Below, in pieces: positions 2,020 through 19,600 of a stretch of DNA of 29,104 nucleotides (position 1 is its first letter; each line of letters opens with the position of its first letter). Made by a program: the position numbers and the translations under genes. The notes beneath the pieces were generated by a model. That model was not told where the DNA came from. It ran no database searches and saw nothing but the letters and a program-made list of their open reading frames with translations. The stretch comes from a virus. The DNA lies in IMG/VR virus record IMGVR_UViG_3300050119_000075, positions 1 through 29,104 of that record; one strand, given 5' to 3'.

Positions 2020-3848
2020 CCAAAATCACCGCACGTTATGTTTCAGAAAGGTTGGCGGCACAAGCCGAAGGGTTCGCAAGGGAGCTTCTCCCCCATGGGA
2101 AGCGGGATGGGGATTGCTGGGTTGTCGGTAGCTTGGATGGCGACTCCGGCAAGAGCCTGAAGGTTCACCTGACCGGAGAACATGCTGGTCAATGGCGTGA
2201 CTGGGCTGCAGAAGACCACGGCGACCTGATCGACCTGTTCGCGCAGATCCGCGGTGTAGGCATCAGCGAAGCGATCAACCAGTGCTGCATCTACCTCAAC
2301 ATCGTCCGTACCCAAATAGACAGCGATCAGAAAAAGACCTATCAAAAGGCCGAGAAACCTGAGGGTCGACGCGCTGTATCGGCGGCCAAGGCGGTCGACA
2401 CATTCTTCGCCGGCAGGATGATCTCCCCGGCAACACTGGCGACATTCAAGGTCGTCGCCAAGGACGACGACGTAGCGGTGTTCCCGTTCTTCCGATCCGA
2501 CTCAAGTGACGAGGTGGTGCATATCCAATACCGTAGCGTCAACGAGAAGAAGTTCTGGGCCAGCAAGGGCACGGAGCTGATATTGTTTGGATGGCAGGCG
2601 GTCAACCAGCGGTCGCGTGCCATCATCATCACCGAAGGCCCGATGGACGCGCTGGCATGGCGCGAGTATGGCTTTGAAGCCATGTCGGTCCCCAACGGTG
2701 CTGGTTCAAACGGCAAGAATGCGTGGATCGAGCGCCAGTACCAGGAGCTGGAGAGGTTCGACAAAGTCTATCTGTGCATGGACAAAGACACCGAGGGCGA
2801 GACGGCCACCAAGGATATTGTGTCGCGCCTTGGGCGCCAGCGGTGTTTCGTTGTCCACCTTCCCGACCCACACAAGGACGTCAACAGCTGCCTCATGGCG
2901 AAGGTACCGCGCGACATCATCACGAAGTGCATAGCTGATTCCAAGACTCTTGACCCCGGTGAGCTGCGCAACGCCAGCTACTTCACCGAGGAGGTCGTGG
3001 AGTTCTTCAACCCGAACAAGAAAAAGGCCGCCGGCTTCGCGCCGCCCTGGCCCTTGCTCGCGAACGATATCAACTTCGGCTACGGCCAGACCACCGTCCT
3101 CGCTGGGTGGAATGGCTCAGGCAAGACGACGCTCGCTGGACACATCACTCTCGATGCCATACGTCAAGGCATCCGGGTATGTGTCGCGAGCCTGGAGTTC
3201 AAGTCGCACACGTACCTGGGCTGGCTCGTGCGCCAGGCCCTGTGCCGGCCGGACCCGCAGCCGGACGATGTTCGCGCCGCGGTAGCGCAGATCAGCAACG
3301 GCCTCTGGGCCTTCGGTACCTACGGTCATGCGAAGCTCGACAAGATCCTTGAGGTCTGGGAGTACGCGCACGCGCGCTACGGCTGCAAGCTGTTCGTGCT
3401 CGACAACCTGTCCAAGCTCAACCTTGGCACGGGCGACAAGGAAGGCAAGAACGACCGTCAGGACGATGCCATAACCAAGCTGACTGAGTTCGGCGTCATT
3501 AACAACGCCCATATCCTGGTGCTGGCTCACAGCCGGAAGAAGCTCAACGAACACGAGGAGGTGGGCAAGCTGGACATCAAGGGCTCGGGCGGCACGACCG
3601 ACCTGGCCGATATAGTTCTGCTGCTGCATCGCAACAAGAAGAAAGAGCGGGCCATGCTGGACCGCAGTATGTATGCCAACCTTCCCATCGAGGAGCAGGT
3701 CAAGCTGCAGCAATCCCCGGATGCCTACTTGACGTGCGAGAAGAATCGCCACGGCGAGGTGGAACCGAGGATGTCGCTCTGGTTCGACCGACTCAGCCAC
3801 CAGTACACCGAGAACGAGCGCGGATCGCCGCGGAGGTATGTCAAATGA
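2016..3848 (+). CDS. T7 gp4-like bifunctional primase-helicase
   Basis: 610 residues. It synthesises RNA primers and unwinds duplex DNA at the phage replication fork. A TOPRIM primase domain is seen with E207 in ITEGPMDALAW and D256/D258 in CMDKDTEG. The C-terminal RecA-fold DnaB/gp4-type helicase has Walker A GWNGSGKTT (364-372), a likely catalytic glutamate in ASLEF (E394), Walker B LFVLDN (459-464) and a sensor histidine in VLAHSRK (H505). The N-terminal 100 residues occupy the place of the zinc-binding domain, but no four-cysteine cluster is present. The ATG overlaps the HNH stop, and its Shine-Dalgarno GAGG lies in the HNH coding sequence. The stop overlaps the next gene (ATGA). Function is confident; template-recognition specificity is not. 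Confidence 0.95.
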   Translation: MTKITARYVSERLAAQAEGFARELLPHGKRDGDCWVVGSLDGDSGKSLKVHLTGEHAGQWRDWAAEDHGDLIDLFAQIRGVGISEAINQCCIYLNIVRTQIDSDQKKTYQKAEKPEGRRAVSAAKAVDTFFAGRMISPATLATFKVVAKDDDVAVFPFFRSDSSDEVVHIQYRSVNEKKFWASKGTELILFGWQAVNQRSRAIIITEGPMDALAWREYGFEAMSVPNGAGSNGKNAWIERQYQELERFDKVYLCMDKDTEGETATKDIVSRLGRQRCFVVHLPDPHKDVNSCLMAKVPRDIITKCIADSKTLDPGELRNASYFTEEVVEFFNPNKKKAAGFAPPWPLLANDINFGYGQTTVLAGWNGSGKTTLAGHITLDAIRQGIRVCVASLEFKSHTYLGWLVRQALCRPDPQPDDVRAAVAQISNGLWAFGTYGHAKLDKILEVWEYAHARYGCKLFVLDNLSKLNLGTGDKEGKNDRQDDAITKLTEFGVINNAHILVLAHSRKKLNEHEEVGKLDIKGSGGTTDLADIVLLLHRNKKKERAMLDRSMYANLPIEEQVKLQQSPDAYLTCEKNRHGEVEPRMSLWFDRLSHQYTENERGSPRRYVK

Positions 3849-4683: not shown

Positions 4684-5532
4684 ATGTCTGAAGTGTACAA
4701 GGCAATTTCCGCGGTAGCTGCAGAGCTCTGCTCAACTGGTATCAGCAAGGACCAGTTCAACCAGTCCCAAAAATTCAAGTTCCGCGGCATCGATGACACG
4801 CTCGCGGCGCTCTCGCCGTTGCTGGTCAAGCACGGCCTGGTGATCCTGCCTCAGGTAACCGGCGTGACCCAGGTCGGCCGCGATGGCACGAACGCCAGTG
4901 GCCAGTCGAAGTTCACCATGCACACCACAATCAACGTGTCCTACACGTTCGTTGCCGTGAAGGATGGTAGCAGCCACCTGTGCGCGCTCTCTGGCGAAGC
5001 CGCCGACTCAGGCGACAAGGGCGTAGCGAAGGCGCTGTCCATGGCGTTCAAGTACCTCATCTTCCAGGCGTTCGCTGTGCCCACCGAGGGCCAGGGCCAC
5101 GACCCGGATGCGGAGACCGTGGAGTTCAAAGGCAAGTCCAAGGACAGGGGCGCTGAGCAGATGTCGCAGGCAGAAGCGACCTCCGCTCCCGCTATCACCG
5201 AAGACCAGCGGCAGACGCTGATCCCGCTACTCACAGAGGCGAAAGTCGATGTCCAAACCTTCCTTAAACATTACAAGGTTGGCGCTCTGTCAGCGCTTCC
5301 TGCAAGCGAATTCGATTCCGTTCTCGCCACGCTTAATAAGCGAGTTGGCGAAGCGCGCGCCGACCGGGTTCTCGCCGGGGATGCGCCTGCTGCTGCGCAG
5401 GGAACTGCCGAACCTAAACCAGCTACGGCCGGAACAAGCCAGTCCGTTAGTGATAGTCCTGCAGGCGGTGCGTCGAAGCCGAGTGCGGCCAAGGTGGGGC
5501 CCAAAGTCAACAGGTTTCGTGGCTTGCGCTGA
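4684..5532 (+). CDS. erf: ERF-family single-strand annealing recombinase
   Basis: 282 residues. ERF proteins bind single-stranded DNA and anneal complementary strands during phage recombination. The ERF signature is clear in residues 28-57 (KFKFRGIDDTLAALSPLLVKH, followed by GLVILP) and in GEAADSGDKGVAKALSMAF and KYLIFQAFAVPTEG. After about residue 150 comes a variable linker, then a helical region ending with a basic tip (VNRFRGLR). The ATG at 4684 has GGAGG seven bases upstream; an in-frame ATG or GTG further up at 4648 would lie within the promoter region. It works with the YqaJ exonuclease and SSB encoded downstream as a Red-like recombination module. Confidence 0.93.
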   Translation: MSEVYKAISAVAAELCSTGISKDQFNQSQKFKFRGIDDTLAALSPLLVKHGLVILPQVTGVTQVGRDGTNASGQSKFTMHTTINVSYTFVAVKDGSSHLCALSGEAADSGDKGVAKALSMAFKYLIFQAFAVPTEGQGHDPDAETVEFKGKSKDRGAEQMSQAEATSAPAITEDQRQTLIPLLTEAKVDVQTFLKHYKVGALSALPASEFDSVLATLNKRVGEARADRVLAGDAPAAAQGTAEPKPATAGTSQSVSDSPAGGASKPSAAKVGPKVNRFRGLR

Positions 5533-5656
5533 GCGATTCACGCGCAAGGTCTCTGCCCCCTTATTTAGGGCCGGGATTCTACTAAGTATCAAAGGAAAGT
5601 ACATTGCAGTCGATGATAAAAAGGCTGACGAATTTTTGAAAAGGTTCGCGGGATGA
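5519..5656 (+). CDS. Small hypothetical ORF (45 residues) after ERF
   Basis: From a GTG at 5519, overlapping the ERF 3' end by 14 bases, the frame reads MACAERFTRKVSAPLF and ends KKADEFLKRFAG. Its TGA overlaps the ATG of the HNH relic (ATGA). A weak AGG precedes the GTG. It is lysine-rich and more AT-rich than ERF. The ending LKRFAG-stop resembles the end of the first HNH protein (LSRFAA-stop), so it might be a 3' remnant of a second homing endonuclease rather than an independent gene; five residues are too few to decide. A longer frame back to 5249 is the shadow of ERF. No family is recognised. Confidence 0.45.
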   Translation: MACAERFTRKVSAPLFRAGILLSIKGKYIAVDDKKADEFLKRFAG

Positions 5657-5721
5657 ATTTAATATCCAGGTCTGAGGCACAAATTGGCGGGCTGAGCCGT
5701 TACTTCAGGAGAAATCTATGA
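5653..5721 (+). pseudogene. Deletion relic of HNH homing endonuclease (22 codons)
   Basis: The frame starts MNLISRSEAQIGGLSRYF and ends RRNL then stop. The first 18 residues align with both intact HNH proteins in this window (MKTISRAQAKSLGLKRYF and MKIITRAEAKSQGLKRYF). The last residues match the end of the 6440 gene (YLRRNT-stop), also at DNA level (AGGAGAAA). This is what an internal deletion joining first and last codons would leave. It starts with an ATGA overlap on the preceding ORF and ends with an ATGA overlap on the YqaJ gene, and its AGGAGA is the YqaJ Shine-Dalgarno. It encodes no nuclease but may persist as a translational coupling peptide. Confidence 0.75.
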
Positions 5722-6443
5722 CCTGGTGTGACGACCTTCCTGCTACGCGACAAAAGGTACTTCACCTTCGGGTAGGTGGCCCAATTGAGTATTTGACGGA
5801 AAACTGGTTCCTGTGCCGAAGGGGCCGTATTACCGCGTCAACACGTTCTGACGTTCTACAGCGCGGAGACGTTGTTGCATGGCGAAAACTTGCTGACGAG
5901 TTGCGCGCAGAGATGGAGCCTGATTACGAACGCAAGGACTTCGATCACCCGGCCATGGCCTGGGGCAGGAAGCACGAGCGCCAAGCCCTGGACGAGACCA
6001 GTGAGCGCTTGGTAGGCAATAAGTTCAGGCTGATAGAGCCCGGATTCATGCTTCATCCTCTTCACGATGTTGCTGGTGCCACTCCAGACGGACTGCTGGA
6101 AGACTATACCATCCAGATCAAGTGCCCATTTCAACCAAAGAACCACATGGAGACGGTGAATACCGGAACCATCAAATCAGCCTACTACAGCCAGGTTAAT
6201 TTTGAATCATACGTAAGTGGAAAGCCCCGTATAATCTTTGGCAGTTTCGACCCCCGCATTCCAAGTGACAACCCGGATCGACTGTGTCTCATTGAGGTTC
6301 CTCGGGACGCCCAGATGATAGAAAGATTTGAATTCAACTTGGAAAAATTCCGCAAGTACTTTGATTGCGAGGAGCCCTGGCCTACTCGTGGCAGACAACT
6401 TTCTGCAAGCGGGGGAATTGATGTTGGGGGCCTATTTACGTGA
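5718..6443 (+). CDS. YqaJ-family (lambda exonuclease-like) recombination nuclease
   Basis: 241 residues. YqaJ-type PD-(D/E)xK exonucleases degrade one strand of duplex ends to load an annealing protein, here the nearby ERF. Seen: RRGRITAS (34-41), AMAWGRKHE (79-87), and the core GATPDG with D124 followed by IQIKCPF with K135. The position normally filled by the metal-binding glutamate of ExK is Q133 (codon CAG), so the canonical triad is incomplete. The C-terminal SAYYSQVNFESYVSG is typical of the family. The ATG has AGGAGA upstream inside the HNH relic, and the stop overlaps the GTG of the next HNH gene (GTGA). Family call is firm; catalytic competence is uncertain. Confidence 0.88.
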   Translation: MTWCDDLPATRQKVLHLRVGGPIEYLTENWFLCRRGRITASTRSDVLQRGDVVAWRKLADELRAEMEPDYERKDFDHPAMAWGRKHERQALDETSERLVGNKFRLIEPGFMLHPLHDVAGATPDGLLEDYTIQIKCPFQPKNHMETVNTGTIKSAYYSQVNFESYVSGKPRIIFGSFDPRIPSDNPDRLCLIEVPRDAQMIERFEFNLEKFRKYFDCEEPWPTRGRQLSASGGIDVGGLFT

Positions 6444-8397: not shown

Positions 8398-8789
8398 CCG
8401 ATACCGACAGCAAGGAGCTTCGGGAGGCCATGGCTGACTTCGTGGGTGCATGCACCTACGCGGGCAAGCGTGCCAAGGCGTGGGGCAAGAAGGCGCATCA
8501 CATCCTCGGCTCAAAGCGCAGCTTCATCGTCCACGAGGAAGATGGCACGCCCCTGGCTGTAATGGTGGTCCTTCAGCAGCCAGCGCCGTACTCCGCCACC
8601 TACGTATATGAGGCCTGGGATTGGGCGTACAAGCTCAACCTGCCGCTCTCAATCGTTGCCGGCGAAGATTCCGCGGTCAACATCCCGCGCACTGAGCTGA
8701 GCCGTACACTGGACCTGTGGCGCCCCTATGTAGGCCCTGACGGATTCATTCTGGACTTCACCCGCAACGTCGAGGAGACCGCATCGTGA
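8391..8789 (+). CDS. Hypothetical 132-residue protein
   Basis: Begins MVADTDSKELREAMADFVGA and ends NVEETAS. It overlaps the SSB stop by seven bases with only a weak GGCGGG upstream, so it is probably translationally coupled to SSB. The sequence reads as a small soluble alpha/beta protein with strands at FIVHEEDGTPLAVMVVLQQ and a helical centre (VYEAWDWAYKLNL). No motif or family is recognised. The stop overlaps the GTG of the lipoprotein gene (GTGA). Confidence 0.75.
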   Translation: MVADTDSKELREAMADFVGACTYAGKRAKAWGKKAHHILGSKRSFIVHEEDGTPLAVMVVLQQPAPYSATYVYEAWDWAYKLNLPLSIVAGEDSAVNIPRTELSRTLDLWRPYVGPDGFILDFTRNVEETAS

Positions 8790-9184
8790 AACGCAATCAA
8801 GACCCATTCTACGCGATAGTCCTCGCGGCGGTGATCATACTTCTTGGACTGGCCGTCATTGGGGCGGTCACCGGCTGCGCCAGCATACCCGAAGCCCAGA
8901 CCCATGAGACCATTGGCAAGGACAGCGCGACCGTTATCGCTGTCAGCGTGGACGGCAAGCCCTCTGCCTTCATCTTCGTCAGCAAGACCGGCCATACCGG
9001 CGGCGTGCCCGTCGATGCGTGCGCGGCCTCTGATAAGTGCGTCGCCCTGGTCAAGAAGCTGAGCGCGAATGATCAGGCCAGCGTCATGAACTTGCACAGC
9101 GAATGCACTGATTCATCTGACGACGGGTTACCCAGCCCAGGCAACCCGGCGGACCATGTGCCAGGTCGAAGCGGCCCGCTCTGA
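8786..9184 (+). CDS. Small phage lipoprotein
   Basis: 132 residues from a GTG start overlapping the previous stop. Residues 10-30 are a hydrophobic signal segment (AIVLAAVIILLGLAVIGAV) ending in a canonical lipobox V-T-G-C with C31 as the acylated residue. The mature part (ASIPEAQTHETIG...) is a small domain with cysteines at DACAASDKC and SEC, probably disulfide bonded, and a Pro/Gly-rich tail. It would be exported and lipid-anchored in the envelope. Envelope lipoproteins encoded by phages sometimes block superinfection; that role is inference. No Asp at +2, so outer-membrane sorting is possible. Confidence 0.75.
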   Translation: MKRNQDPFYAIVLAAVIILLGLAVIGAVTGCASIPEAQTHETIGKDSATVIAVSVDGKPSAFIFVSKTGHTGGVPVDACAASDKCVALVKKLSANDQASVMNLHSECTDSSDDGLPSPGNPADHVPGRSGPL

Positions 9185-9703
9185 ATGGCATCGGATGACT
9201 TTCGGGCAATCGGAAAGGTTGGTGGAGAGTTCAAGGTCTACGACGATCTGCGTCGGCACCTTGAGGAGAAGGGGGTCGACTACGACCGCCTGCCGAAGCT
9301 CTCCAGTATCGATAGCCCTCCGGCGTGTTTCGTTTACCGTGCGCGAGGAGATGTGGCGAAGGCTCGAACGGACTACGTTGCATGGCTACGTCTGGCGTCG
9401 GAAACCAGCGACATCAACTATCGGTTCGATATGCCGGCCGAAGTCAACTACTGTCGCGACTGCACACCAGCGTTCAAGAAGGAAGCTGCGGCTGCTGGGG
9501 CATGCCAATTTCCACACGTCAAATTCGAGATCGTCCAGTGCATGGGTGAGAAGGAAATGGTCGGTGTGAGCCGCGGTGAAGCGGTTGCCCCTGGTGAGCG
9601 CTGGACCTACGAGGATATGAGCCTTGCCGAGGAAGACCTACCTGACTTCATTCAGGCCCTTTTGGTCGAGGCCAGAGTTGGCGCCATAGAGGGATCGAAG
9701 TGA
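9185..9703 (+). CDS. Hypothetical protein with Cys cluster (172 residues)
   Basis: Begins MASDDFRAIGKVGGEFKVYD. The ATG follows the previous stop directly (TGAATG), so coupling is likely; no clear Shine-Dalgarno is seen. Residues about 89-113 contain NYCRDCTPAFKKEAAAAG followed by ACQFPH, a Cys-x2-Cys plus Cys/His arrangement that recurs in small uncharacterised phage proteins and probably binds zinc. The C-terminus is acidic and helical (YEDMSLAEEDLPDFIQALLV). I assign no function. Its stop overlaps the GTG of the next gene. Confidence 0.75.
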   Translation: MASDDFRAIGKVGGEFKVYDDLRRHLEEKGVDYDRLPKLSSIDSPPACFVYRARGDVAKARTDYVAWLRLASETSDINYRFDMPAEVNYCRDCTPAFKKEAAAAGACQFPHVKFEIVQCMGEKEMVGVSRGEAVAPGERWTYEDMSLAEEDLPDFIQALLVEARVGAIEGSK

Positions 9704-10026
9704 GCGAGCCCCACACCTTCGAGGTTGGCGAGCTCGCCATCCTGATCTTCTCGCGAATACATCCTGAATACGACGGCGAGGACGTCGAGGTCATCGCCCC
9801 GCTCGCGGACCGTCTGGCCCGTAGGACGCCGGGAGACAGTGGTTCAATAATTCTTGGGTATCTTGTCCGGGTAATCAACAGTGATACCCTGCATGTTGAG
9901 CCGTTCCAACTCAAGAAGAAGCCGCCGTACGATCAAAGGCTTGGTACTACATGGGACCGATGCGCGTGGCGGCCGAAGCGCTTGACAGTTCCAGCCATCG
10001 CGATATATGATGGCGAGGAAATTTAG
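9700..10026 (+). CDS. Hypothetical 108-residue beta-rich protein
   Basis: Starts at a GTG (GTGA overlap with the previous stop) and reads MSEPHTFEVGELAILIFSRI. FEVGELAILIFS followed by YDGEDVEVIAPL looks like a small beta-barrel of SH3 or KOW type, and YLVRVINSDTLHVEPFQL continues it; this is a visual impression, not a family match. Its 3' end holds the promoter of the envelope-protein cassette. No function is assigned. Confidence 0.72.
   Translation: MSEPHTFEVGELAILIFSRIHPEYDGEDVEVIAPLADRLARRTPGDSGSIILGYLVRVINSDTLHVEPFQLKKKPPYDQRLGTTWDRCAWRPKRLTVPAIAIYDGEEI
9982..10011 (+). promoter_or_regulatory. Sigma70 promoter of envelope-protein cassette
   Basis: TTGACA (9982-9987), an 18-base spacer and TATGAT (10006-10011): a perfect -35 and five of six -10 bases. 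A start near 10018 gives a leader of about 45 bases with GAGG before the ATG at 10063. This lets the three-gene cassette be expressed separately from the replication operon. Confidence 0.7.
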
Positions 10027-10062
10027 GTTTAGACGTTCAATCAACACCACAGAGGACATTGT

Positions 10063-10494
10063 ATGAAATTCTTATTGACTATCTCTCTTTCGCTGTTGCT
10101 TGGCTCCGCGGCTGCGTACGCCCAGGAAGTCCCTGTCAGCGTCGCTGTTACTGGCGATCAGGTGGCGGCCCAGGCCGCTTCCCAGGAAGCCCTGGCTGCC
10201 GAACAGGCCGCCGCAGAAGCCGCTGACAAGACCGCCGCAGAGGAGGCCAGCCCCCAGGCAGCCACAAGCCCCGATCAGGTTCACGCCGTCATGTTCGAGG
10301 TCACGATTGACCGCTACACTGGCGTGTGGACACATGCTCAGGTCATTGGCGGCTACAAGGACAATGCGGCATGCACGCGCGCAGTGCTGCCAGTAGCAGC
10401 CGTCACCTCCGGGGATCTCGGTCAGAACGACATCCCGGTGTTTCTGTGCCCGGACATCGATCTGAAGTCTGTCAAGGATTGGCAGGTCAAGTGA
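10063..10494 (+). CDS. Secreted Ala/Glu-rich protein with signal peptide
   Basis: 143 residues. Residues 1-20 (MKFLLTISLSLLLGSAAAYA) are a Sec signal peptide with an AYA cleavage site before QEVP. Residues 35-70 are an Ala/Glu-rich helical or coiled segment (EALAAEQAAAEAADKTAAEE). The C-terminal domain (HAVMFEVTIDRYTGVWTHAQ ... CTRAV ... VFLCPD) has two cysteines that may pair in the periplasm. The ATG has GAGG eight bases upstream; a 36-base gap and a good promoter separate it from the replication operon. No family is recognised. Export to the periplasm is well supported; function, perhaps modifying the infected host's envelope, is inference. Confidence 0.8.
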   Translation: MKFLLTISLSLLLGSAAAYAQEVPVSVAVTGDQVAAQAASQEALAAEQAAAEAADKTAAEEASPQAATSPDQVHAVMFEVTIDRYTGVWTHAQVIGGYKDNAACTRAVLPVAAVTSGDLGQNDIPVFLCPDIDLKSVKDWQVK

Positions 10495-10598
10495 TCGTAT
10501 GGAAGTACAGGCGCTCATCAGCATGGCTGTGGTGGGCGCCTTTCTTTGTTTCTGCATTGATAGTTGCAGGGGTTATTTGGTTGGCCATTCGGGCCTGA
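10491..10598 (+). CDS. Tiny single-pass membrane protein (35 residues)
   Basis: Starting at a GTG that overlaps the previous stop (GTGA), the frame reads MIVWKYRRSSAWLWWAPFFV and ends VIWLAIRA. A basic N-terminus (KYRR) precedes one hydrophobic Trp-rich helix of about 24 residues, predicting N-in topology. The overlap, positive-inside charge pattern and cassette position support a real gene despite its size. It would sit in the inner membrane beside an exported protein. Its stop codon region lies in the left arm of the inverted repeat at 10594. Confidence 0.62.
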   Translation: MIVWKYRRSSAWLWWAPFFVSALIVAGVIWLAIRA

Positions 10599-10632
10599 CC
10601 ACTACCGCCCATCACAGCAAGCCGTGGTCAGG
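10594..10632. repeat. Perfect 9-bp inverted repeat bracketing promoter -35
   Basis: CCTGACCAC (10594-10602) and GTGGTCAGG (10624-10632) are exact reverse complements separated by 21 bases. The right arm abuts the TATAAT of the next promoter and the left arm precedes its -35. This could be a pair of operator half-sites or a large-loop RNA hairpin; there is no T-run, so a terminator is unlikely. Confidence 0.6.
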
Positions 10633-10638
10633 TATAAT
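10611..10638 (+). promoter_or_regulatory. Promoter of DUF3494 lipoprotein gene
   Basis: A perfect TATAAT (10633-10638) with ATCACA (10611-10616, four of six matches) at 16 bases. A start near 10645 leaves about 33 bases of leader containing AGGAG before the ATG at 10678. Overlap with the inverted repeat at 10594-10632 suggests regulation. Confidence 0.62.
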
Positions 10639-10677
10639 GGCCCGACCTGTCACCCAATCTTTTTTCAGGAGTTTCAC

Positions 10678-11793
10678 ATGTTTAAGAATCTAATCGCACT
10701 CGTCGCAGCGGCGATAGTGACCGTTGGTTGCGGCGGAAGCGGTGGAGCTCTGCTGTCCACAGTGACGGTGTACCCGGTTCCGGGTAGTTCGTCCAGCTCG
10801 TCCAGCTCGTCTTCCAGCGGCGTAACCACACCCCCTTCCAGTAGCTCGTCCAGTTCGTCTGGCGGCTCGTCCAGTGGCGTGATCACACCCCCCAGCTCGT
10901 CCAGCTCGTCTGGCGTCTCGTCCAGCTCGTCCAGTTCGTCCAGCTCGTCTGGCGTCTCGACAAGCTCTAGCTCGTCAAGCAGCTCGTCTTCTAGTAGCTC
11001 CAGCTCCTCTGGTGGCACGCTCGTCCCGCTCGGCGCAGTTCAGACGGTCGGTAACTTCGGCGGTACTGCCGGGATGACCAACACCGGAACCCTGACTACG
11101 GTAGTCGGCGATGTCGGTTCGACCGCAACAGCCGCTTCGTCGCTCACGGGCTTCCATGACAGCACCGGGAACATCTACACGGAGACCACGGCTAACATTG
11201 GCACCGTGACTGGCACGATCTATTCGTGCGCGCAGTCCACGGTAGGCTCCGATGATGCCGCGCCGAACGTGCCGAAGTGCTCGACCGGCTACCCTAACGT
11301 AGGCGGCCCGAACGCTACGCAGATGGCCGCTGATGCGGATACCGCGTACCTGCAGCTCGAAGCGATGCCCTTCACGGCACCGACCCTGGTCGACAGCTTG
11401 GCTGGGCTCACCCTGCCGGCTGGCGTCTACAAGTCGGCCCCTGGGTCGTTCTCTATCGTTGGCGGCGATCTGACGCTCACTGGTTCTGACACAGACGTGT
11501 TCGTGTTCCAGATGGCTTCTACGTTAACGGTTGGTGCCGCCAATGGCGGGGCCTGTCAGAACGTGATCCTCGCTGGCGGAGTGCTGCCGAAGAATGTGTT
11601 CTGGCAAGTGGGCTCAGGGGCGACGATCAATGCGCCCGGTGGCTGCACCTTCGTCGGTACAGTGATCGCAAGCGCTGGTGTCGCCGTCTCAACGGTTGGC
11701 AATGTCGGCATTGTGGATGTCGAGGGTCGCCTCATGTCGCTGAACGCTTCAGTGACCATAGTCGACACGGTGATCAACGTCCCAACCCCGTAA
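10678..11793 (+). CDS. Ice-binding-like (DUF3494) lipoprotein with poly-Ser stalk
   Basis: 371 residues. Residues 1-17 are a signal peptide followed by C18 (TVGC), a somewhat weak lipobox. Residues about 36-111 are a serine-rich linker with SGVTTPP and SGVITPP interruptions. From residue 112 the DUF3494 ice-binding beta-helix is clear: LGAVQTVGNFGGTAGMTNTG, GDVGSTATAASSLTGF, DSLAGLTLPAGVYKS, DLTLTGSDTDVFVFQMASTL, NVFWQVGSGATINAP, CTFVGTVIASAGVAV. The domain binds ice in some bacterial and algal members; others act as adhesins or have unknown ligands. The ATG at 10678 is chosen for AGGAG upstream and the signal peptide. It has its own promoter and a terminator. Poly-Ser linkers are typical of aquatic gammaproteobacterial secreted proteins, hinting at host-derived acquisition (inference). 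Confidence 0.9.
   Translation: MFKNLIALVAAAIVTVGCGGSGGALLSTVTVYPVPGSSSSSSSSSSSGVTTPPSSSSSSSSGGSSSGVITPPSSSSSSGVSSSSSSSSSSSGVSTSSSSSSSSSSSSSSSSGGTLVPLGAVQTVGNFGGTAGMTNTGTLTTVVGDVGSTATAASSLTGFHDSTGNIYTETTANIGTVTGTIYSCAQSTVGSDDAAPNVPKCSTGYPNVGGPNATQMAADADTAYLQLEAMPFTAPTLVDSLAGLTLPAGVYKSAPGSFSIVGGDLTLTGSDTDVFVFQMASTLTVGAANGGACQNVILAGGVLPKNVFWQVGSGATINAPGGCTFVGTVIASAGVAVSTVGNVGIVDVEGRLMSLNASVTIVDTVINVPTP
10786..11013 (+). repeat. Degenerate 9-bp repeats encoding serine linker
   Basis: Tandem, imperfect copies of TCGTCCAGC-like units encode uninterrupted serines broken by SGVTTPP-type segments. Serine codons alternate among TCG, TCC, AGC and AGT. The slippage-prone array could vary in length among relatives. 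The opposite strand stays open only because of the repeat. Confidence 0.8.
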
Positions 11794-11808
11794 GACTGGG
11801 ATGACAAG

Positions 11809-11843
11809 TAGCCCCGGCTGGAAACGGCTGGGGCTATTTTTTT
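11809..11843 (+). terminator. Rho-independent terminator after DUF3494 gene
   Basis: An 11-bp stem (TAGCCCCGGCT at 11809-11819 pairing with 11826-11836, two G-U pairs) with a GGAAAC loop is followed by seven T residues (11837-11843). It ends the rightward transcript just before the convergent leftward genes. The reverse strand lacks a T-run, so it should act mainly rightward. Confidence 0.88.
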
Positions 11844-12349
11844 GCGTTGGCGCCAAGCATCTCGGCGCGAAGGGCCGCGTCTACCGCCTGCACCGCCGTT
11901 ACTTGGGCGTCTGCGTCTCTGGCGATGGTGACGGCTGCGTCGGCGAATTGCTGTAACTCTGCAACAGAGCTCTCATCTTGGCTTCCGCTGACGGGGGCGT
12001 TGTCTCCACTGGGACTACCGATGGCGGGGCCGGGCAAGGGGCCACTACCGCGTACGGTGCGGCACAGGCCGACAGGCACAGGAGCATTGGTGACAGGAAC
12101 AGCGATAACTTTTTCATTGAGCTTCTCCGCAAGAGTGGTGGCAGCTGCCGCGAGGCCTTGGACGGTCGTGTTGCGCTCCGTTTGGGCTACCACGGCCTTT
12201 TGATTCAGGGCCAGGATCTTCGCCTCACCCTCCATTACAACCGAGTGATGATACCACGCGAAGCCCCCTATGAGAGCGACCGCAGCGCCGGCAATGAGAT
12301 ATCCCTTGATGGGGTTGATGGCGCCCAGCGCCGTGCTCAGAATTGTCAT
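11834..12349 (-). CDS. Rz: Inner-membrane spanin (Rz-like)
   Basis: 171 residues. Residues 14-32 (IKGYLIAGAAVALIGGFAW) form one N-terminal transmembrane helix, followed by a periplasmic helical domain (EGEAKILALNQKAVVAQTER) and an Ala-rich C-terminal helix, the plan of an i-spanin. A Pro/Gly-rich insert (PLPGPAIGSPSGDNAPVSGS) coincides with the part overlapped by the embedded Rz1 frame. i-Spanins fuse inner and outer membranes in the last step of Gram-negative lysis together with Rz1. The ATG at 12349 has AGGAG seven bases upstream and overlaps the holin stop. Its TAG stop lies within the rightward terminator stem. Confidence 0.85.
   Translation of the reverse strand: MTILSTALGAINPIKGYLIAGAAVALIGGFAWYHHSVVMEGEAKILALNQKAVVAQTERNTTVQGLAAAATTLAEKLNEKVIAVPVTNAPVPVGLCRTVRGSGPLPGPAIGSPSGDNAPVSGSQDESSVAELQQFADAAVTIARDADAQVTAVQAVDAALRAEMLGANAKK
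11899..12117 (-). CDS. Rz1: Outer-membrane spanin lipoprotein (Rz1), nested in Rz
   Basis: 72 residues in the +1 frame, wholly inside the Rz gene as in lambda. Signal peptide MKKLSLFLSPMLLCLSAC ends in the canonical lipobox L-S-A-C with C18 acylated. The mature part is proline-rich (APYAVVAPCPAPPSVVPVET), as in o-spanins, and ends PSPETQTPK. The ATG at 12117 has GGAG eight bases upstream; an earlier in-frame start adds five residues without a better site. The product is anchored in the outer membrane and bridges the periplasm to Rz. No Asp follows the lipid cysteine, consistent with outer-membrane sorting. Confidence 0.88.
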   Translation of the reverse strand: MKKLSLFLSPMLLCLSACAAPYAVVAPCPAPPSVVPVETTPPSAEAKMRALLQSYSNSPTQPSPSPETQTPK

Positions 12350-12603
12350 GGGTGTGCTCCTATGATGTCGTGAACGAGCTCAGCATGCTCGCGTTGCTGT
12401 ATCCCAGGACGATCTGGTAGCTTGTCATCGATGCAGGAGTGCGCCGTGTAGCAGCCAAAGACCGTAGTGAAACAAGCTCCAAAAATCGTGCCACCAATGT
12501 GGTTCGTCCAGACGAGCACTGTCAGTATGACGAGCGCCGACATAGCCAGGATCGCCCGAACCTCTGCGAAGTCGTCCAGCATTTCGCTTATTGCAATTTT
12601 CAT
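12346..12603 (-). CDS. Holin-like membrane protein
   Basis: 85 residues with two hydrophobic segments: about 18-36 (AILAMSALVILTVLVWTNH) and 38-54 (GTIFGACFTTVFGCYTA). A polar N-terminus (MKIAISEMLDDFAEVR) and a charged C-terminus complete a class II holin-like topology. It lies between lysozyme and spanin genes with ATGA overlaps on both sides, the usual place of a holin, whose pore releases endolysin to the cell wall. No family signature beyond topology and context; the 169-residue membrane protein upstream is an alternative holin candidate. Confidence 0.72.
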   Translation of the reverse strand: MKIAISEMLDDFAEVRAILAMSALVILTVLVWTNHIGGTIFGACFTTVFGCYTAHSCIDDKLPDRPGIQQREHAELVHDIIGAHP

Positions 12604-13031
12604 ACGGGGCTCATGAAAAGTTTCTGCTCAGCCGCCCGTCTACGTGTTAGACCGTCGTCGACCACACCATCGCAGTGGTTCCACTTCGGAAACTCGTTGG
12701 CAGCCTGAGCCAGCTGGCTCTGATTGATGTAGTGCAACAGCGTCGAGTGCGCCTCGCTGCCGATGCCCAGGTTGTAGGTGAAGTCCACCAGGGCATCGAA
12801 TTGGTTCTGATTAATAGCCACGTCTAGTGAACGGTTGACGGCTAGTACCGCAGCGGCGGCATCCGCCTCAAGAAAGGCGTCAGCCTGCGCCTGGGTACAC
12901 GTGTCGCCCTCTTTGACGCCCGCCGTGTGACCGTAGCCTATAGTCCAAACACCCTTCTGGTCCTGGTACGCTACGGACCTGAAGGACTCGAACTGCTCGA
13001 TCAGTTGTTTGCCAGCTGGTGATAGCTTCAT
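12600..13031 (-). CDS. GH24 (T4-type) lysozyme endolysin
   Basis: 143 residues. The active-site pattern matches T4 lysozyme spacing: E15 in QFESF, D24 in AYQDQKG and T30 in VWTIGYGHT. Downstream NQNQFDALVDFTYNLGIGS and the C-terminal TRRRAAEQKLF are typical of GH24 phage muramidases, which hydrolyse the MurNAc-GlcNAc bond in peptidoglycan. No signal peptide or anchor is present, so release through a holin is expected. The ATG has GAGGG nine bases upstream, and the stop overlaps the holin start (ATGA). Confidence 0.95.
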   Translation of the reverse strand: MKLSPAGKQLIEQFESFRSVAYQDQKGVWTIGYGHTAGVKEGDTCTQAQADAFLEADAAAAVLAVNRSLDVAINQNQFDALVDFTYNLGIGSEAHSTLLHYINQSQLAQAANEFPKWNHCDGVVDDGLTRRRAAEQKLFMSPV

Positions 13032-13071: not shown

Positions 13072-13167
13072 TCAGATCAAAATTCCGACTGCGAATACTA
13101 CGGTCACAAAGACCCAAAGACAGATTGCGCATAAGGCGAGTTTTGACTTCCAGGATGCGATGCTCAT
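13072..13167 (-). CDS. Tiny lysis-cassette membrane protein (31 residues)
   Basis: The ATG at 13167-13165 overlaps the stop of the upstream 169-residue gene (ATGA), and the frame reads MSIASWKSKLALCAICLWVF then VTVVFAVGILI. Residues 10-31 are one continuous hydrophobic helix preceded by two lysines. Size, coupling and position between a membrane protein and the lysozyme suggest a lysis-modulating or holin-accessory peptide. Longer frames across this stretch are Arg-rich and lack signals. Function is inferred from context only. Confidence 0.6.
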   Translation of the reverse strand: MSIASWKSKLALCAICLWVFVTVVFAVGILI

Positions 13168-13673
13168 ACCGCCTTCTCCGTTGGGGGCGTTTGCACCACC
13201 GGGATTGGCGCATGCGCCACGACAACTACCGGGATGGGGCTTGCGTCACGGGCGGCGGCTTCGATCCGCGGATCAGGGTATCCCACCGGCCTACTGGCGA
13301 TAGTTGCTGCAGCCGATTTGGCTTCCGGCGTGGCGTTCGGGTTCGCCATCACCTCCATAAATACCGCTGTCTGCGTCTCCCTCGCGAGCTGCATCTGCTG
13401 CTCATGCTCTCTTCCGTCAACCAGTGCCTTGGCAATCAAGGCCTTGTTCATGCCGTTGGTCTGGACGTGTATCTCCTCGATCTTTGTCGCGTTCACGGCT
13501 GACAAGTCCGCCGCGCGAGCTATCGCTACGGCATTGCGCTGGGCAGCGATCTCGTTTCTCAGGGAGGTGCGCCAGCCGCCCACTGCGGCAACGCCAGCGA
13601 GCATAGTGCCGCAGGCCGATATCACCGATCCGGCGATAAGCGCCATGCTTGCTGCTGCACTGAGGTCTACCAT
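13164..13673 (-). CDS. Membrane-anchored coiled-coil protein upstream of lysis genes
   Basis: 169 residues. One hydrophobic segment (about 8-33, ASMALIAGSVISACGTMLAGVA) is followed by a long helix (LRNEIAAQRNAVAIARAADL, IEEIHVQTNGMNKALIAKAL) and a Pro/Ala-rich tail ending in PPTEKAV. Proteins with an IHVQTN-type helix after one membrane segment commonly sit beside phage endolysins, but I know of no proven activity; a holin or antiholin role is possible. The ATG has only a weak GAAG upstream. It follows the giant gene by 11 bases, so it is probably on the same late transcript. Confidence 0.75.
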   Translation of the reverse strand: MVDLSAAASMALIAGSVISACGTMLAGVAAVGGWRTSLRNEIAAQRNAVAIARAADLSAVNATKIEEIHVQTNGMNKALIAKALVDGREHEQQMQLARETQTAVFMEVMANPNATPEAKSAAATIASRPVGYPDPRIEAAARDASPIPVVVVAHAPIPVVQTPPTEKAV

Positions 13674-13683
13674 TGTTATTCTT

Positions 13684-16600
13684 CTACGCTAGAAATTTGA
13701 CCAGCGATGCGGTCGCCGGCATGCCGTAAGAGTATAGCAGGCTTGTCTGTTTTTCTCGCGTTGCACCAATCAACTTGGACGCCTGGAATGGGGAGAGCTT
13801 GCCGCCTGGACGCAGGTCGAACGCGCGTTTGGCGATAGTGTTGATGACCTCCTGTATCTGATCCATTCGCTCCTGCTTATCTTTGCCCGACATTCCCGGC
13901 ATTTGTTGTATGACGCGCTGTTGTTTGTAGAGGGAGTTGACCGCCTTAACCTGCTCGTCAATGGCCGGCTGCATCACAATGTCCGCCAGATGCTCGTTGT
14001 GGAATTCCAGCCCGCGCTCTACCTCTCCGCCCTTCATGTACTTCTTGAAGGTATCGGCGGCCTCGTCAACCTGTTTCGCATAGGCGTACATTTGATCGCT
14101 GTACTTCGTACGTCGCGACGGGCCGGTACTGTAGACCTGGCTCATTGCCGGAACGTCCTGAGGGAAGCCGCGGGTTGGCGCCTCTATCCCCTTCGACTTG
14201 TTGATCGCCCAGTCTGACGCCGCTGTCGCAAACTGACCAAGGGTTCCGAGGTAGCTGGCCCCAAGGTACTGTAGCTGCTTCGGGCTCTTGGCAAAGTCCG
14301 GCATGAACTCGGGCATGTTTTGAGCTATGCCGCGGTAGGTGGGACTGACGTACGGCGCGTCCTGCGCCTGAGGAGCTACGCTTAGATCCTGTTGATTGAG
14401 GATGGGAGAGCCGCTGTAGGCCTGCTTGTTGCGCAGCTCACCGACCATGGGGCTGATCAGGGTGGGCAGCCCACCCATTGCGATCTGATGCCACACTACG
14501 TCGCCTACCATGGACACGGCGTTTTTGACGCGGTCGTTCTCGCTGCTCAGCGCCAAGTCTGTAAGCGCCTCTGGAATCGTCGTCACGATATCTGCCGAGT
14601 CGAACCCCTTTGGAATCTGGATGTGAACCCCACCAGGCCAGAAGTGGTAGTAGTTGATCTTCTGATCGTTGGTCAGGGCCTTGTACTCTTCGTTGTCCTT
14701 GTGCATGTAGGCGTACGCAACGGCAGACATGGCCATCAAACCAGCTCGGGTTCCGACACCCAAGGGGTTACGCACGGCAAGCTCATACGCCGAGGACGCG
14801 CCTGAGATCCCGGCCTTGAGGAACGGTACGGTGTCGCAGAAGAACCGCATGACCTCGTAGTCTCCGCCCTTGCTGTAGTCGAGTACGTTGCGCGCGGCGA
14901 ACGCCTGCTGGAGTCGGCTACCGCCCTCTTTCTCGACGGCCTGCGCAACCGCCAGACGATGCGTGCCTTCGGTGGCGGACAGGAGGTGGCTGTAGAAGGC
15001 CGAGAATTTGAGCGCGCTATCTATGATGATGCCACGCCCCTTGATGCCTTTGGCTATCCCGGAAGTGTTTCCGCTTGCATGGGCTCCCACGAAGGCGCCG
15101 CCGGCCGCCGCGAGATCGCGTGACTCCTGGGTGCCCTTCATGATCTTGTAGATGCCCTTCGCCGTATCCCAGACCGGGATGAAGTCCGGCATGATGTGCT
15201 TGTCTCCAAGCACCGTCTCGCTCTGATGTCCGCTCAAGAACTGCAGGAAGCTGTGGCGCATCAGAACCTTTCCGATGAAGATTGGTGACTTGACGATAGC
15301 TGCGGTTAAAAACCTCTTCGGCGCGCTCAACACCTTCATCGCGAGCGCCTGAAACCCAGACCTTCCGTTATCGTTCATGTTCGTGAGCGCCCTGAACAGC
15401 ACCGGATCGTGTACCAGGTAGTGCTCCTTCACGCCATTGCGCCAGAGCCACACGTGGTTCTTGCTCTCCGGGATGTAGGCGGCATGCTCGTACATACGGT
15501 CGAACGTCTCTCCGGTGACCCGGTCTGCGTCGATTCCCTGATCCGACAGCTGCTGCCTGAATGCGTCCCGACTCAGCGTGGTGCCGTGCGGCGGAGTGAA
15601 ACGCTCAACCATCCCGGTGTGCGCGATGCTATCCACTGTGAGCTGTAACGCCTTCGTACGCAGGCTGGACTTCATCAGAGAATCCCAGTTGCGCAGCATG
15701 TTCTCCATGGGGTCGCCAAGCGCGGACGTTCCGCCGGTCAGCCTATTGATCTGTTGTCGCACGCGCCCAATCTCGTTTCCTGATCCGTGGCCGCCAATCT
15801 CACCATCCTCGTTCATCACGCGGAAGAATGGCACGTAGTCGTCGTGCTCCCATAGCGCGCGGGACGACTTGCTTATGACTCCGGCCTGCTCAGCGAAGTC
15901 AAGGACGCCCTTCTTGAACTTCGCCAGCTCAGTGTAGGCGTGCTCGAACTCTGGGTTCTGGGTCCACAGGCGATTGCCGGCGTCGATCTCTGGCTGCGTG
16001 AATAGGTTCTCGCGTCCCTCGCCCATCAGGCGGTCTGCGCGCCGCGCTACCATGGCCCTGAAGAAGTCGTCAACTTTTTTCCCAAGTGGCGCCAGGATAT
16101 CCTGGAAGCCGGTGTGGCCAGAGATGGCCGGGGCGTCGTCATTCCAGGTTGGCGTTCCGTAGCGAATGAGGGCGTCCATCAGGGATGCGTGGTTCGCGGC
16201 GAGGCGCGCGCTCATGCGTCCCAGATTCGGGCCTTCGTTTCCGCTGATGCGCCAGGCGCGCTGTATGCCCCATGTCTTGTCGAAGATGCCCTGTACGACC
16301 TTGTCGCGAAACAGCTCCGACTCGGACCTGATGTTCTTGAGGAAGCCACCAATTTTTTCCGTGAAGCTACGCTTGTCGGGGTTGATCTTTGACAGGAACG
16401 ATTCCATATCAGGATCGTGCGCCCCGCCTACGGCGAAGTGAGCCTCTCCCTGCTGTAGGCTGGGCTCTGTCGTCTTCTTGCTGCGCGACTCTGTCAGCCG
16501 CGCGGCTGCCTTCAGTAGACTGGGTTCGAGAGTTTCGACAGCAATCTTTGGCGCTTGTCCTGCATCTGTCGGCTGGGCAGCCTGGGACTGCCGACGTAGG

Positions 16601-19600
16601 CCGTCAAGTTGCTCGCCGTAGCCGGCTTGCCGGAGAACGGTTTCTTGCTCCCCGCCGAGGAAGAGGGTCGAGAAGTCTGGGGTACCTTTGATGAGCGCAT
16701 CGCTTATGTCCTTGTCTTTTACGAGATCGGCTATCGACGCCATCCCCTTAAATGAATCCGAGTGTTCGCTGGCCGCTTTCGACCAGGACCATATTGTTTC
16801 CTGAACCTCAGCTGGGGTCCAGGTCTCGCCGGTCAGCTTCGAGAGGTGCTCGGCAGCTTGCCGGACACGCGCCGAGTATGCCATATATGCCGTGGACTTG
16901 CCAGGCTCGGTCTTGGTAGCGTTCAGCTGGCCACCGAATATCTTGGCGTCCACGTTGGCATAGTGCGCCATCCACGAGTCGAGCGTTACATCCTCCACAT
17001 GTCCGTGGAGGTTGCGCATGAAGGAGTTGACCTTGGGTCCGCTGATCGTCAGGGTCTCTGGGTTCGGGTGCGTGAGGCTGGACACGGTGTTGTTGATCCA
17101 CGCCGGCAGCACGCTGTCAGTGAGCTTGTTGCCCTCTACCGAGTCGCCCATGATCTTGAAGATCGCGCCGCGTGTCTGTGGACGCCCCGCCGCGTCCCAG
17201 TTCTTCCACGTGCTGACGGCGTTCATCAGGTTCGTCTCTACGCTAGTCTGGGGGCTCATGCTCGCCAGTAGCGCGCTGAAGCGCGGAGCGTCATGGCCGA
17301 ATACGTTAGAGATCGCCTCGGCGCTCTGCTTGTACCAGCCGCGCTTCGCCCTACCGGCATAGGCGACGTGTGCCATCTCTTTGGCGCTCGGTAGCTGGTT
17401 AAACTGGTCTACGACGCGCTGCGCCGTGGCACGATTGAGCTTGCCCTTCTCGTCAGGGGTCAGGTACTTGGCGATCTTGGCGATGGTGTCGCGTACCGCG
17501 CGGCGGGTGGGTGATTCCTTCTCGGCGACCTTGTCGAGAAACTCACTCATGTCTTTTGACTTCTCGGCATTGGTTCTGAACATCGCCGTGAGCGGGCCGC
17601 CGGCTGTAGCGGCCTTGCGCATCTCGGGCGTGATGTCGATGCCGTGAACCATGGTATCCGGGTGGCTGTCCGTACGGTACTTCTGCATAAGCGCATCGCG
17701 CTTCTCGTTGCTAAGGTTCGCCCAGTATTCGTGTTGAGACTCGCGGGCTATCCCCATGCGGTCCATGACCAACTCTCCGCTGACCCAGTCCTTGCCAGTG
17801 GTCTGCTTTCCGATAGACTCGCTGGTGACCTTGCCACCGAACTTCTTCGTCAACTTCTCGGCAGCGCTCGGCAGCATCTTGTCATAGAAGCCGCGCATGC
17901 CGGAACCTCCTACCTCAAGGTCTTGCCCGTTGAGCTCGCGGGTTGGGAATAGGCGTGGCTTGGTCCTTTTGCCGGAGGCCCCATCATCTCGATACATGGT
18001 GGAGTCAGGGTCCGCTTCATACGCCGCATGCTCCTCGGCGGTCTTACCATTGAGTGTCAGCATGCGCTGGTTCGCCGCAAGGAGCTTGTTCGCTACTTCC
18101 TTGCCTACCATGTCAGGCAGCCCAGCTTGCATCTCTGCCTCTGACTTCCAAAACTTCGTGGTGTTGCTGCCACGGGTGTCGTGGTACGCCTTCAGGACAT
18201 GCTCGCCATCCTCGTTGGAAACCAGCTTGAGGGATTTGACGTGCTTGGAGAGGTTGTAGCGCGCGTTCTGCTGATCGCCAGTCGTCCACGACAGACGGTC
18301 GAAGCCGTTCTCTGCTGCGTGCTGCAGCATGCGCTTGAGCGCGAGCTCGTGCCAGCTGGTCTTGAAGGGGGCGTCTGGGACGCCATCGTCCTGTCCCTCA
18401 AGCTCTTTGTATTTTCTAAGTAGCTGATGGTACTCTTCCTGAACTGCGGTAATCTGAGCCTCATTAGCAACCGCGTCATCCCCGTTCAGGCGACTCTCTT
18501 TCTTACCAAGGTCTGTCATTTTTGACTGCAGATCCGCCATGGTCTGCAGTCTATCTTTCAGGCTCATGGTAGTGGAATAACCATTTTTTCGCCCCTCCTG
18601 ATGCCAGTCGCTCTGGATCTCCTGAAGGAACAGGTTGCGCTTGCCAGCGGGATCGGTGCGCTCATCGTAGCGGACATGGGCCAGGACGTTGTCGTGGCCT
18701 GACCAATGGTTAGATTTATAGGCGTCTCGCCCTCTTGGCGCTCTTGCTACTGTGCCGCCAAGGACACCGGCATCGTGCATCGCCTCGTACTGGTTATCGT
18801 AGTACCTTGGAGGTTCGATGCCATTTGAATCAGTGACCTTGAATCCGTTCGGCTCAACAGGGGTCTTCAGTAATTTCTCCGCGTAGTTCTCGCCACCGGG
18901 GATGTTCAGGCTCTCGCGGTCGTAGACGGAGGGGGTCTCGTTATCGTGGTATCCGATGCCTTTAAGGACTTCTGTGTACCAAGGATGTTCTGCGTGTGCG
19001 TTGAACAGCTCAGGAAATTTGGCGTCAATCTCTTTGTAGACATCGTAGTCATTGGCGAGGGAAATGTTCAGATCGTTTTCCCGACCATTGATGCCGCCAT
19101 TCTCTTTGATGACGCGCGCTACCTCTCGGGTGTAGTACGGGCTCTCTTTGTTTAGCGTTAGATCCCTGTGCTGCAGCGTCGTCTCACCCAGCTGTACCTG
19201 GTGCTCTCGTAGGTAGCCCAGCAGGTCAGCCTTTGATACTGTGCCAGTCTGCTTGTCGAGCCAGTCGTGGACGCCAAGCCAGTCCATCTCTTCCTTCTTC
19301 ACACCGGACAATCCCTTGAGCGTACCCTTCCACTGGTCTGCTGAGGCCTTGGCTTGTTTTGATCCCTCGACCGCATCTACCAGGGCGGAGTGCCAGCGCG
19401 GGGCCTCTGACTCGCCCATGTTGTACTGGCGTGGCTTGCCGGTGATGCGCTGGCTCAAGAGGTCGCGCGCTAGGAGACGTTTGCCGGCACCGCGGCGGAG
19501 CGCCTGTGCGCTACGGTCGATCAGCGAGGTGATGTCGGCTTCTGTCCAGATGCCGTTGCGGCCCTGCTGAAAGAGCGAGTTGAGCCTCGCGCCGTCCGCA

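Follow-up and report, generated by a model that had tools for sequence, protein, structure and literature searches.

An anchored, poly-Ser-stalked DUF3494 lipoprotein beside the lysis genes of two phages, a candidate surface adhesin

What might a phage do with an envelope lipoprotein that carries an ice-binding fold? The question is raised by the virus record IMGVR_UViG_3300050119_000075, the whole of which (29,104 bases, hereafter the window) was analysed. Early genes occupy its + strand from 1498 to about 10026 (HNH, primase-helicase, Erf, exonuclease, endonuclease VII and SSB), and the late side lies on the − strand, encoding an Rz-like spanin, a holin-like protein, a lysozyme, a polyvalent protein and a tail-fibre-like protein. 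The DUF3494 locus sits between these two groups. With replication genes to one side of it and lysis genes to the other, the locus is not a piece of host DNA at the edge of a prophage, the case that the preliminary description had named as a way in which its reading could fail. Also present in the record are a YAcAr (SLOG family) protein at 401-871 (−) and, at 13684-24495 (−), the polyvalent protein, 3603 aa long, which takes up about 37% of the record and has LPD38, zeta-toxin-like and DUF7178 matches.

The lipoprotein gene (10678..11793, +; SD AGGAG) encodes 371 aa, arranged as a lipobox (VTVGC, Cys18), a poly-Ser stalk (residues 37-111) and a beta-solenoid domain (residues about 119-371). 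Reading of the sequence found the features of a Sec/SPII signal, namely a positively charged N-terminus, a hydrophobic stretch and the lipobox (MFKNLIALVAAAIVTVGC-GG). The Thr at −3 of the lipobox is less usual, while the homologue in the nearest phage relative, IMGVR_UViG_3300037202_000023 (G001), has the more typical LTAC. Gly at +2 fits outer-membrane sorting under the Lol rule. The stalk comprises 75 residues, 75% of them Ser, and all six Ser codons are in use, a mixture that argues against a DNA-repeat artefact. Anchored carbohydrases of Saccharophagus are known to have the same order of lipobox and poly-Ser linker (PMC2386152).

The domain matched PF11999 with an E value of 7.7e-41 (140.5 bits against a cut-off of 28.7), residues 129-366 covering profile positions 3-207 of 208; no PHROG covered the protein. 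An AlphaFold2 model built from a 42-sequence alignment (pLDDT 83.7, pTM 0.85) contained a helix at 95-111 followed by solenoid strands; this run was used in place of one with 12 sequences, which gave a pLDDT of 51.5. Foldseek gave 31 matches with E values no higher than 2e-8, every one of them an ice-binding or antifreeze protein, and VIA comparison with solved ice-binding proteins gave Z scores of about 25-27.4, the best being AnpIBP (27.4; rmsd 1.5 over 196 residues). Taken together, the profile match, the model and the structural matches rule out a chance or misread DUF3494 domain, and the central claim of the preliminary description, a DUF3494 lipoprotein on a poly-Ser stalk within a phage genome, was borne out.

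That description had further placed the gene in a self-contained three-gene envelope cassette, and each part that it named was located. A sigma-70-like promoter (TTGACA-18-TATGAT, 11/12 consensus matches; 9982..10011, +) lies, as a correction to the earlier account, within the 3′ end of an ORF at 9700-10026. Downstream are a 143-aa signal-peptide protein (10063..10494, +; SD AGAGGA), Ala-rich at first and with two Cys in its small C-terminal part, and a 35-aa single-TM ORF (10491..10598, +) whose GTG start overlaps the preceding stop and whose hydropathy is 2.2 over 19 residues. The 35-aa ORF is the weakest call, and its coding status uncertain, because an alternative ATG frame beginning at 10499 overlaps it; this 64-aa frame (10499-10693, +) contains a hydrophobic segment and also overlaps the start of the lipoprotein gene. 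A second promoter-like site (ATCACA-16-TATAAT, 10/12; 10611..10638, +) precedes the lipoprotein gene. Its −35 element is flanked by an operator-like, perfect 9-bp inverted repeat, CCTGACCAC / GTGGTCAGG (10594-10602 / 10624-10632, 21-nt spacing), the 8-bp core pattern of which occurred once in the window and in 0/100 shuffles. A strong intrinsic terminator (11806..11843, +), with a 15-pair stem at 11806-11839 and a T-run, separates the converging + strand unit from the − strand lysis block. Site counts in the region did not greatly exceed those of shuffled sequence (two promoter-like sites against 0.8 expected; four terminator-like sites against 1.9), so that the assignment of the promoters and the terminator rests on placement and strength, not number.

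As a unit the cassette fared less well than its parts. The 143-aa gene is an orphan, with no homologue in INPHARED or IMG/VR and one marginal match among 200 genomes, and no homologue of the 35-aa ORF was found. Neither product was detected in G001 by tblastn, in which the 35-aa sequence is a weak query, and G001 has the lipoprotein alone; a conserved three-gene cassette is therefore not supported. Nor are envelope products confined to this interval, since an envelope-type protein is encoded about 1 kb upstream, within the early operon (8786-9184, +); its start codon is GTG, and its strongly hydrophobic N-terminal segment closes with a lipobox-like VTGC.

G001 is an IMG/VR phage of 48.9 kb in which PHROG identified a terminase and a major head protein. 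Its DUF3494 lipoprotein (4953-6101) shares the lipobox and a Ser/Thr stalk with that of the window, the domains are 85% identical in the codon alignment, and the SD/start context of the two genes is near-identical (CAGGAG..CACATGTTTAAGA). Both genes adjoin homologous lysis blocks. In the window this block is on the − strand and begins with an Rz-like i-spanin (11834..12349), assigned from a weak PHROG match and from homology to G001 3197-3691 (46% identity), the product of which matches an Rz-like spanin at 3e-05. An Rz1-like lipoprotein with an LSAC lipobox is embedded in the Rz frame (11899-12132); a regex scan found no equivalent near the G001 Rz gene. There follow a membrane protein common to G001 (12346..12603; 73% over the best segment), a putative holin from its position and hydropathy, a phage lysozyme (endolysin; 12600..13031; 45%) and a conserved protein of no assigned function (13164..13673; 53%). 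In G001 the lipoprotein gene closes the corresponding block (holin-like, Rz-like, unknown, lysozyme), lying 53 bp after and co-directional with the lysozyme gene and showing by eye no good promoter of its own, whereas the window gene is read from the other strand, towards the block.

The two copies also allowed selection to be assessed. Between the phages the DUF3494 domain gave Ka 0.10 and Ks 0.88 (Ka/Ks about 0.12), and on these values it is under strong purifying selection; it is the best conserved protein that they have in common, the others ranging from 0.22 to 0.56 in Ka and from 1.25 to 2.4 in Ks. The lower Ks of the domain may reflect a more recent exchange of the lipoprotein gene, with most Ks values near saturation. 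This result bears on the reading that the gene is a recent capture from a host and has no function in the phage. Its rarity in phage collections would suit such a reading: tblastn of 50,697 INPHARED records returned no match to the window domain and none to a Myxococcota-type domain, in a search that may miss distant members since S-SKS1, cited elsewhere as a homologue, was not found. Purifying selection between two divergent phages, together with retention of the SD, the start region and the stalk layout, largely refutes it, and we regard it as highly improbable.

If the gene is functional, when might it be expressed? Gene order is our guide to timing, and it is not the same in the two phages. 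That of G001 suggests expression together with the lysis genes; in the window, the pair of promoter-like sites and the operator-like repeat hint at separate control of the lipoprotein gene. An alternative is that the gene is an auxiliary cryoprotection gene, a moron or AMG expressed from its own promoter throughout infection or lysogeny, which would help the host to survive freezing and would have no link to lysis. The window supplies promoter-like sites and a terminator, both as consensus matches, for what is probably a host-derived gene, and cryoprotection has been proposed for viral PF11999 genes (PMC11515562). A further, independent lipoprotein-type copy occupies positions 1-813 of a 9.75-kb viral contig (L064); a Zot-like gene on that contig makes it probably a filamentous phage, with a host-sparing life style. 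However, the G001 gene closely follows a lysozyme gene with no good promoter by eye, and no integrase was found among the window genes searched, the window being a genome fragment. We consider this alternative unlikely. The looser moron-like idea of the preliminary description, taken to mean a host-derived gene with promoters of its own, is still reasonable; the single related phage found, G001, carries the gene as well. Late-only expression, which that description had set against its own proposal, is a possibility partly raised by the G001 gene order.

Where did the domain come from? In a phylogenetic tree the window and G001 domains formed one clade (support 100) on a long stem, within a group that holds Comamonadaceae sequences, and DUF3494 proteins of this family (Rhodoferax, Polaromonas) showed 54-63% aligned identity to the phage domain. 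Of 200 Comamonadaceae genomes sampled, 18 (about 9%) had a PF11999 score above the cut-off. Because the phage clade lies beside Comamonadaceae and the family contains PF11999, the source was probably a Comamonadaceae-type host gene taken up by an ancestor of the phages. The bacterial relatives are by sequence mostly lipoproteins and share the signal and the homologous domain, but their spacers lack a poly-Ser stalk; the longer ones contain Big_5-like repeats (by eye). In the bacterial MAG contigs that carry the Comamonadaceae relatives, no other phage gene of the window was found, and a host search with a lysis-block protein found no match in 300 genomes of the order.

To place the gene among other viral homologs, IMG/VR was scanned with the 42-sequence alignment, yielding 25 viral contigs (L080 duplicating the contig L003/G002). 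Reading of their sequences divided the proteins into a signal-less majority and a lipoprotein type. The signal-less proteins (L062, L063, L065-L070, L073, L074, L076-L079), in many of which an Fn3-like motif was seen by eye at the N-terminus, had among their checked neighbours a terminase (L073), a portal (L079), a head protease (L069) and a tail fibre (L065), and constitute a possible second class that would be displayed on virions. Of the lipoprotein type, L003/G002 and L060 each lie near a major head protein of phrog_752 and have Big_5 spacers, and L059 lies near a thymidylate synthase. The L003 gene (7428-8588) encodes a Big_5-DUF3494 lipoprotein, begins 113 bp after the major head protein gene and is closest to Myxococcota copies. 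Since the window and L003 domains fall in separate clades, the lipoprotein form probably entered phages more than once.

Viral DUF3494 genes have been published before. Three Arctic vOTUs are reported to carry PF11999 'ice-binding-like' AMGs, with S-SKS1 as a homologue and a link to Flavobacteriales (PMC11515562), and one antifreeze protein is reported from Southern Ocean viruses (PMC8407431); Hyperionvirus entries in BFVD provide giant-virus DUF3494 models. These published genes resemble ours in being virus-encoded members of the family (an antifreeze protein in PMC8407431), but the accessible portions of both papers make no mention of a lipid anchor, a poly-Ser stalk or a position in a lysis block. 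Our literature search found no paper combining 'DUF3494' and 'phage', and none describing an anchor and a poly-Ser stalk together with a place by the lysis block in two phages; what is new here is the anchored, stalked form beside the lysis genes of two phages. Among cellular proteins, Flavobacterium PL002-1792, described in 2026, is reported to be an ice-binding-like lipoprotein, Sec/SPII by prediction, that inhibits recrystallisation (PMC13413566). It shares its fold with FfIBP, AnpIBP (7bwy), the Colwellia AFP (3wp9) and the phage domain (Z 26-27 for the solved ones). These proteins differ from the phage lipoprotein in being cellular and experimentally active or solved, and a poly-Ser stalk is not mentioned in the accessible parts of their sources.

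What, then, would the domain bind? Our leading proposal, to which we give an even chance, is a phage-encoded, outer-membrane-tethered adhesin that binds ice or another ordered surface. The same anchored adhesin might instead have a mineral, a polysaccharide or a cell surface as its ligand, attaching cells or debris in soil, sediment or groundwater. PF11999 is found in many ice-free habitats, including rock and subsurface metagenomes, and in substrate-binding proteins (PMC12337378), so that the fold alone is no proof of ice binding; the closest relatives in bacteria are spread over varied MAGs, and the predominance of signal-less IMG/VR proteins, several encoded among virion genes, suits a general adhesion domain. 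Against this, every closely matching solved structure is an ice-binding or antifreeze protein, and we judge a non-ice ligand of this kind a serious but somewhat unlikely option.

A phage-encoded envelope lipoprotein also calls to mind superinfection exclusion, in which, as with T5 Llp or Cor, the protein would block the phage receptor, whether on infected cells or on debris, and so save progeny. Lipoproteins of this kind are reportedly frequent among coliphages (PMC9586334), and a lysis-adjacent position fits the guarding of progeny from debris. However, Llp and Cor are small, lack DUF3494 and are encoded after receptor-binding or tail-tip protein genes (PMC9586334), whereas the window protein is 371 aa long and has a stalked head of ice-binding fold, and its gene neighbours lysis and early genes rather than a receptor-binding protein gene. 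Moreover, it is the solenoid that is conserved, and its nearest relatives elsewhere are proteins of bacteria. Exclusion accordingly appears quite improbable.

Returning to the tethered adhesin, we propose that the 371-aa protein would be made in the infected cell, exported by Sec and lipidated at Cys18, and that Gly at +2 would direct it to the outer membrane. There the Ser stalk of about 75 residues, probably disordered, would hold the DUF3494 beta-solenoid off the membrane, exposing it at the surface; the phage lineage would have captured the domain from a host gene of Comamonadaceae type, and the poly-Ser stalk occupies the place that other spacers take in the bacterial relatives. With late or late-persisting expression and ice as the ligand, the adhesin may benefit the phage by holding infected cells, or pieces of envelope after lysis, at ice-water interfaces, and it may shield the cell from ice growth during infection. 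A more specific and doubtful extension is that the host envelope is coated late with stalked ice-binding heads, placing post-lysis fragments and dying cells on ice or particle surfaces.

Were such lysis-linked coating to occur, the fragments could gather new hosts near released virions, or serve as a decoy or shelter. In the accessible portions of the sources cited above, viral DUF3494 genes are so far metagenomic entries with a possible cryoprotective AMG role, and how their products are built is not described. The protein studied here has a clear layout of anchor, stalk and ice-binding-fold head, conserved under selection and near the lysis genes of two different phages. This conserved anatomy makes possible phage control of host attachment to ice or other surfaces directly testable with one expressed protein.
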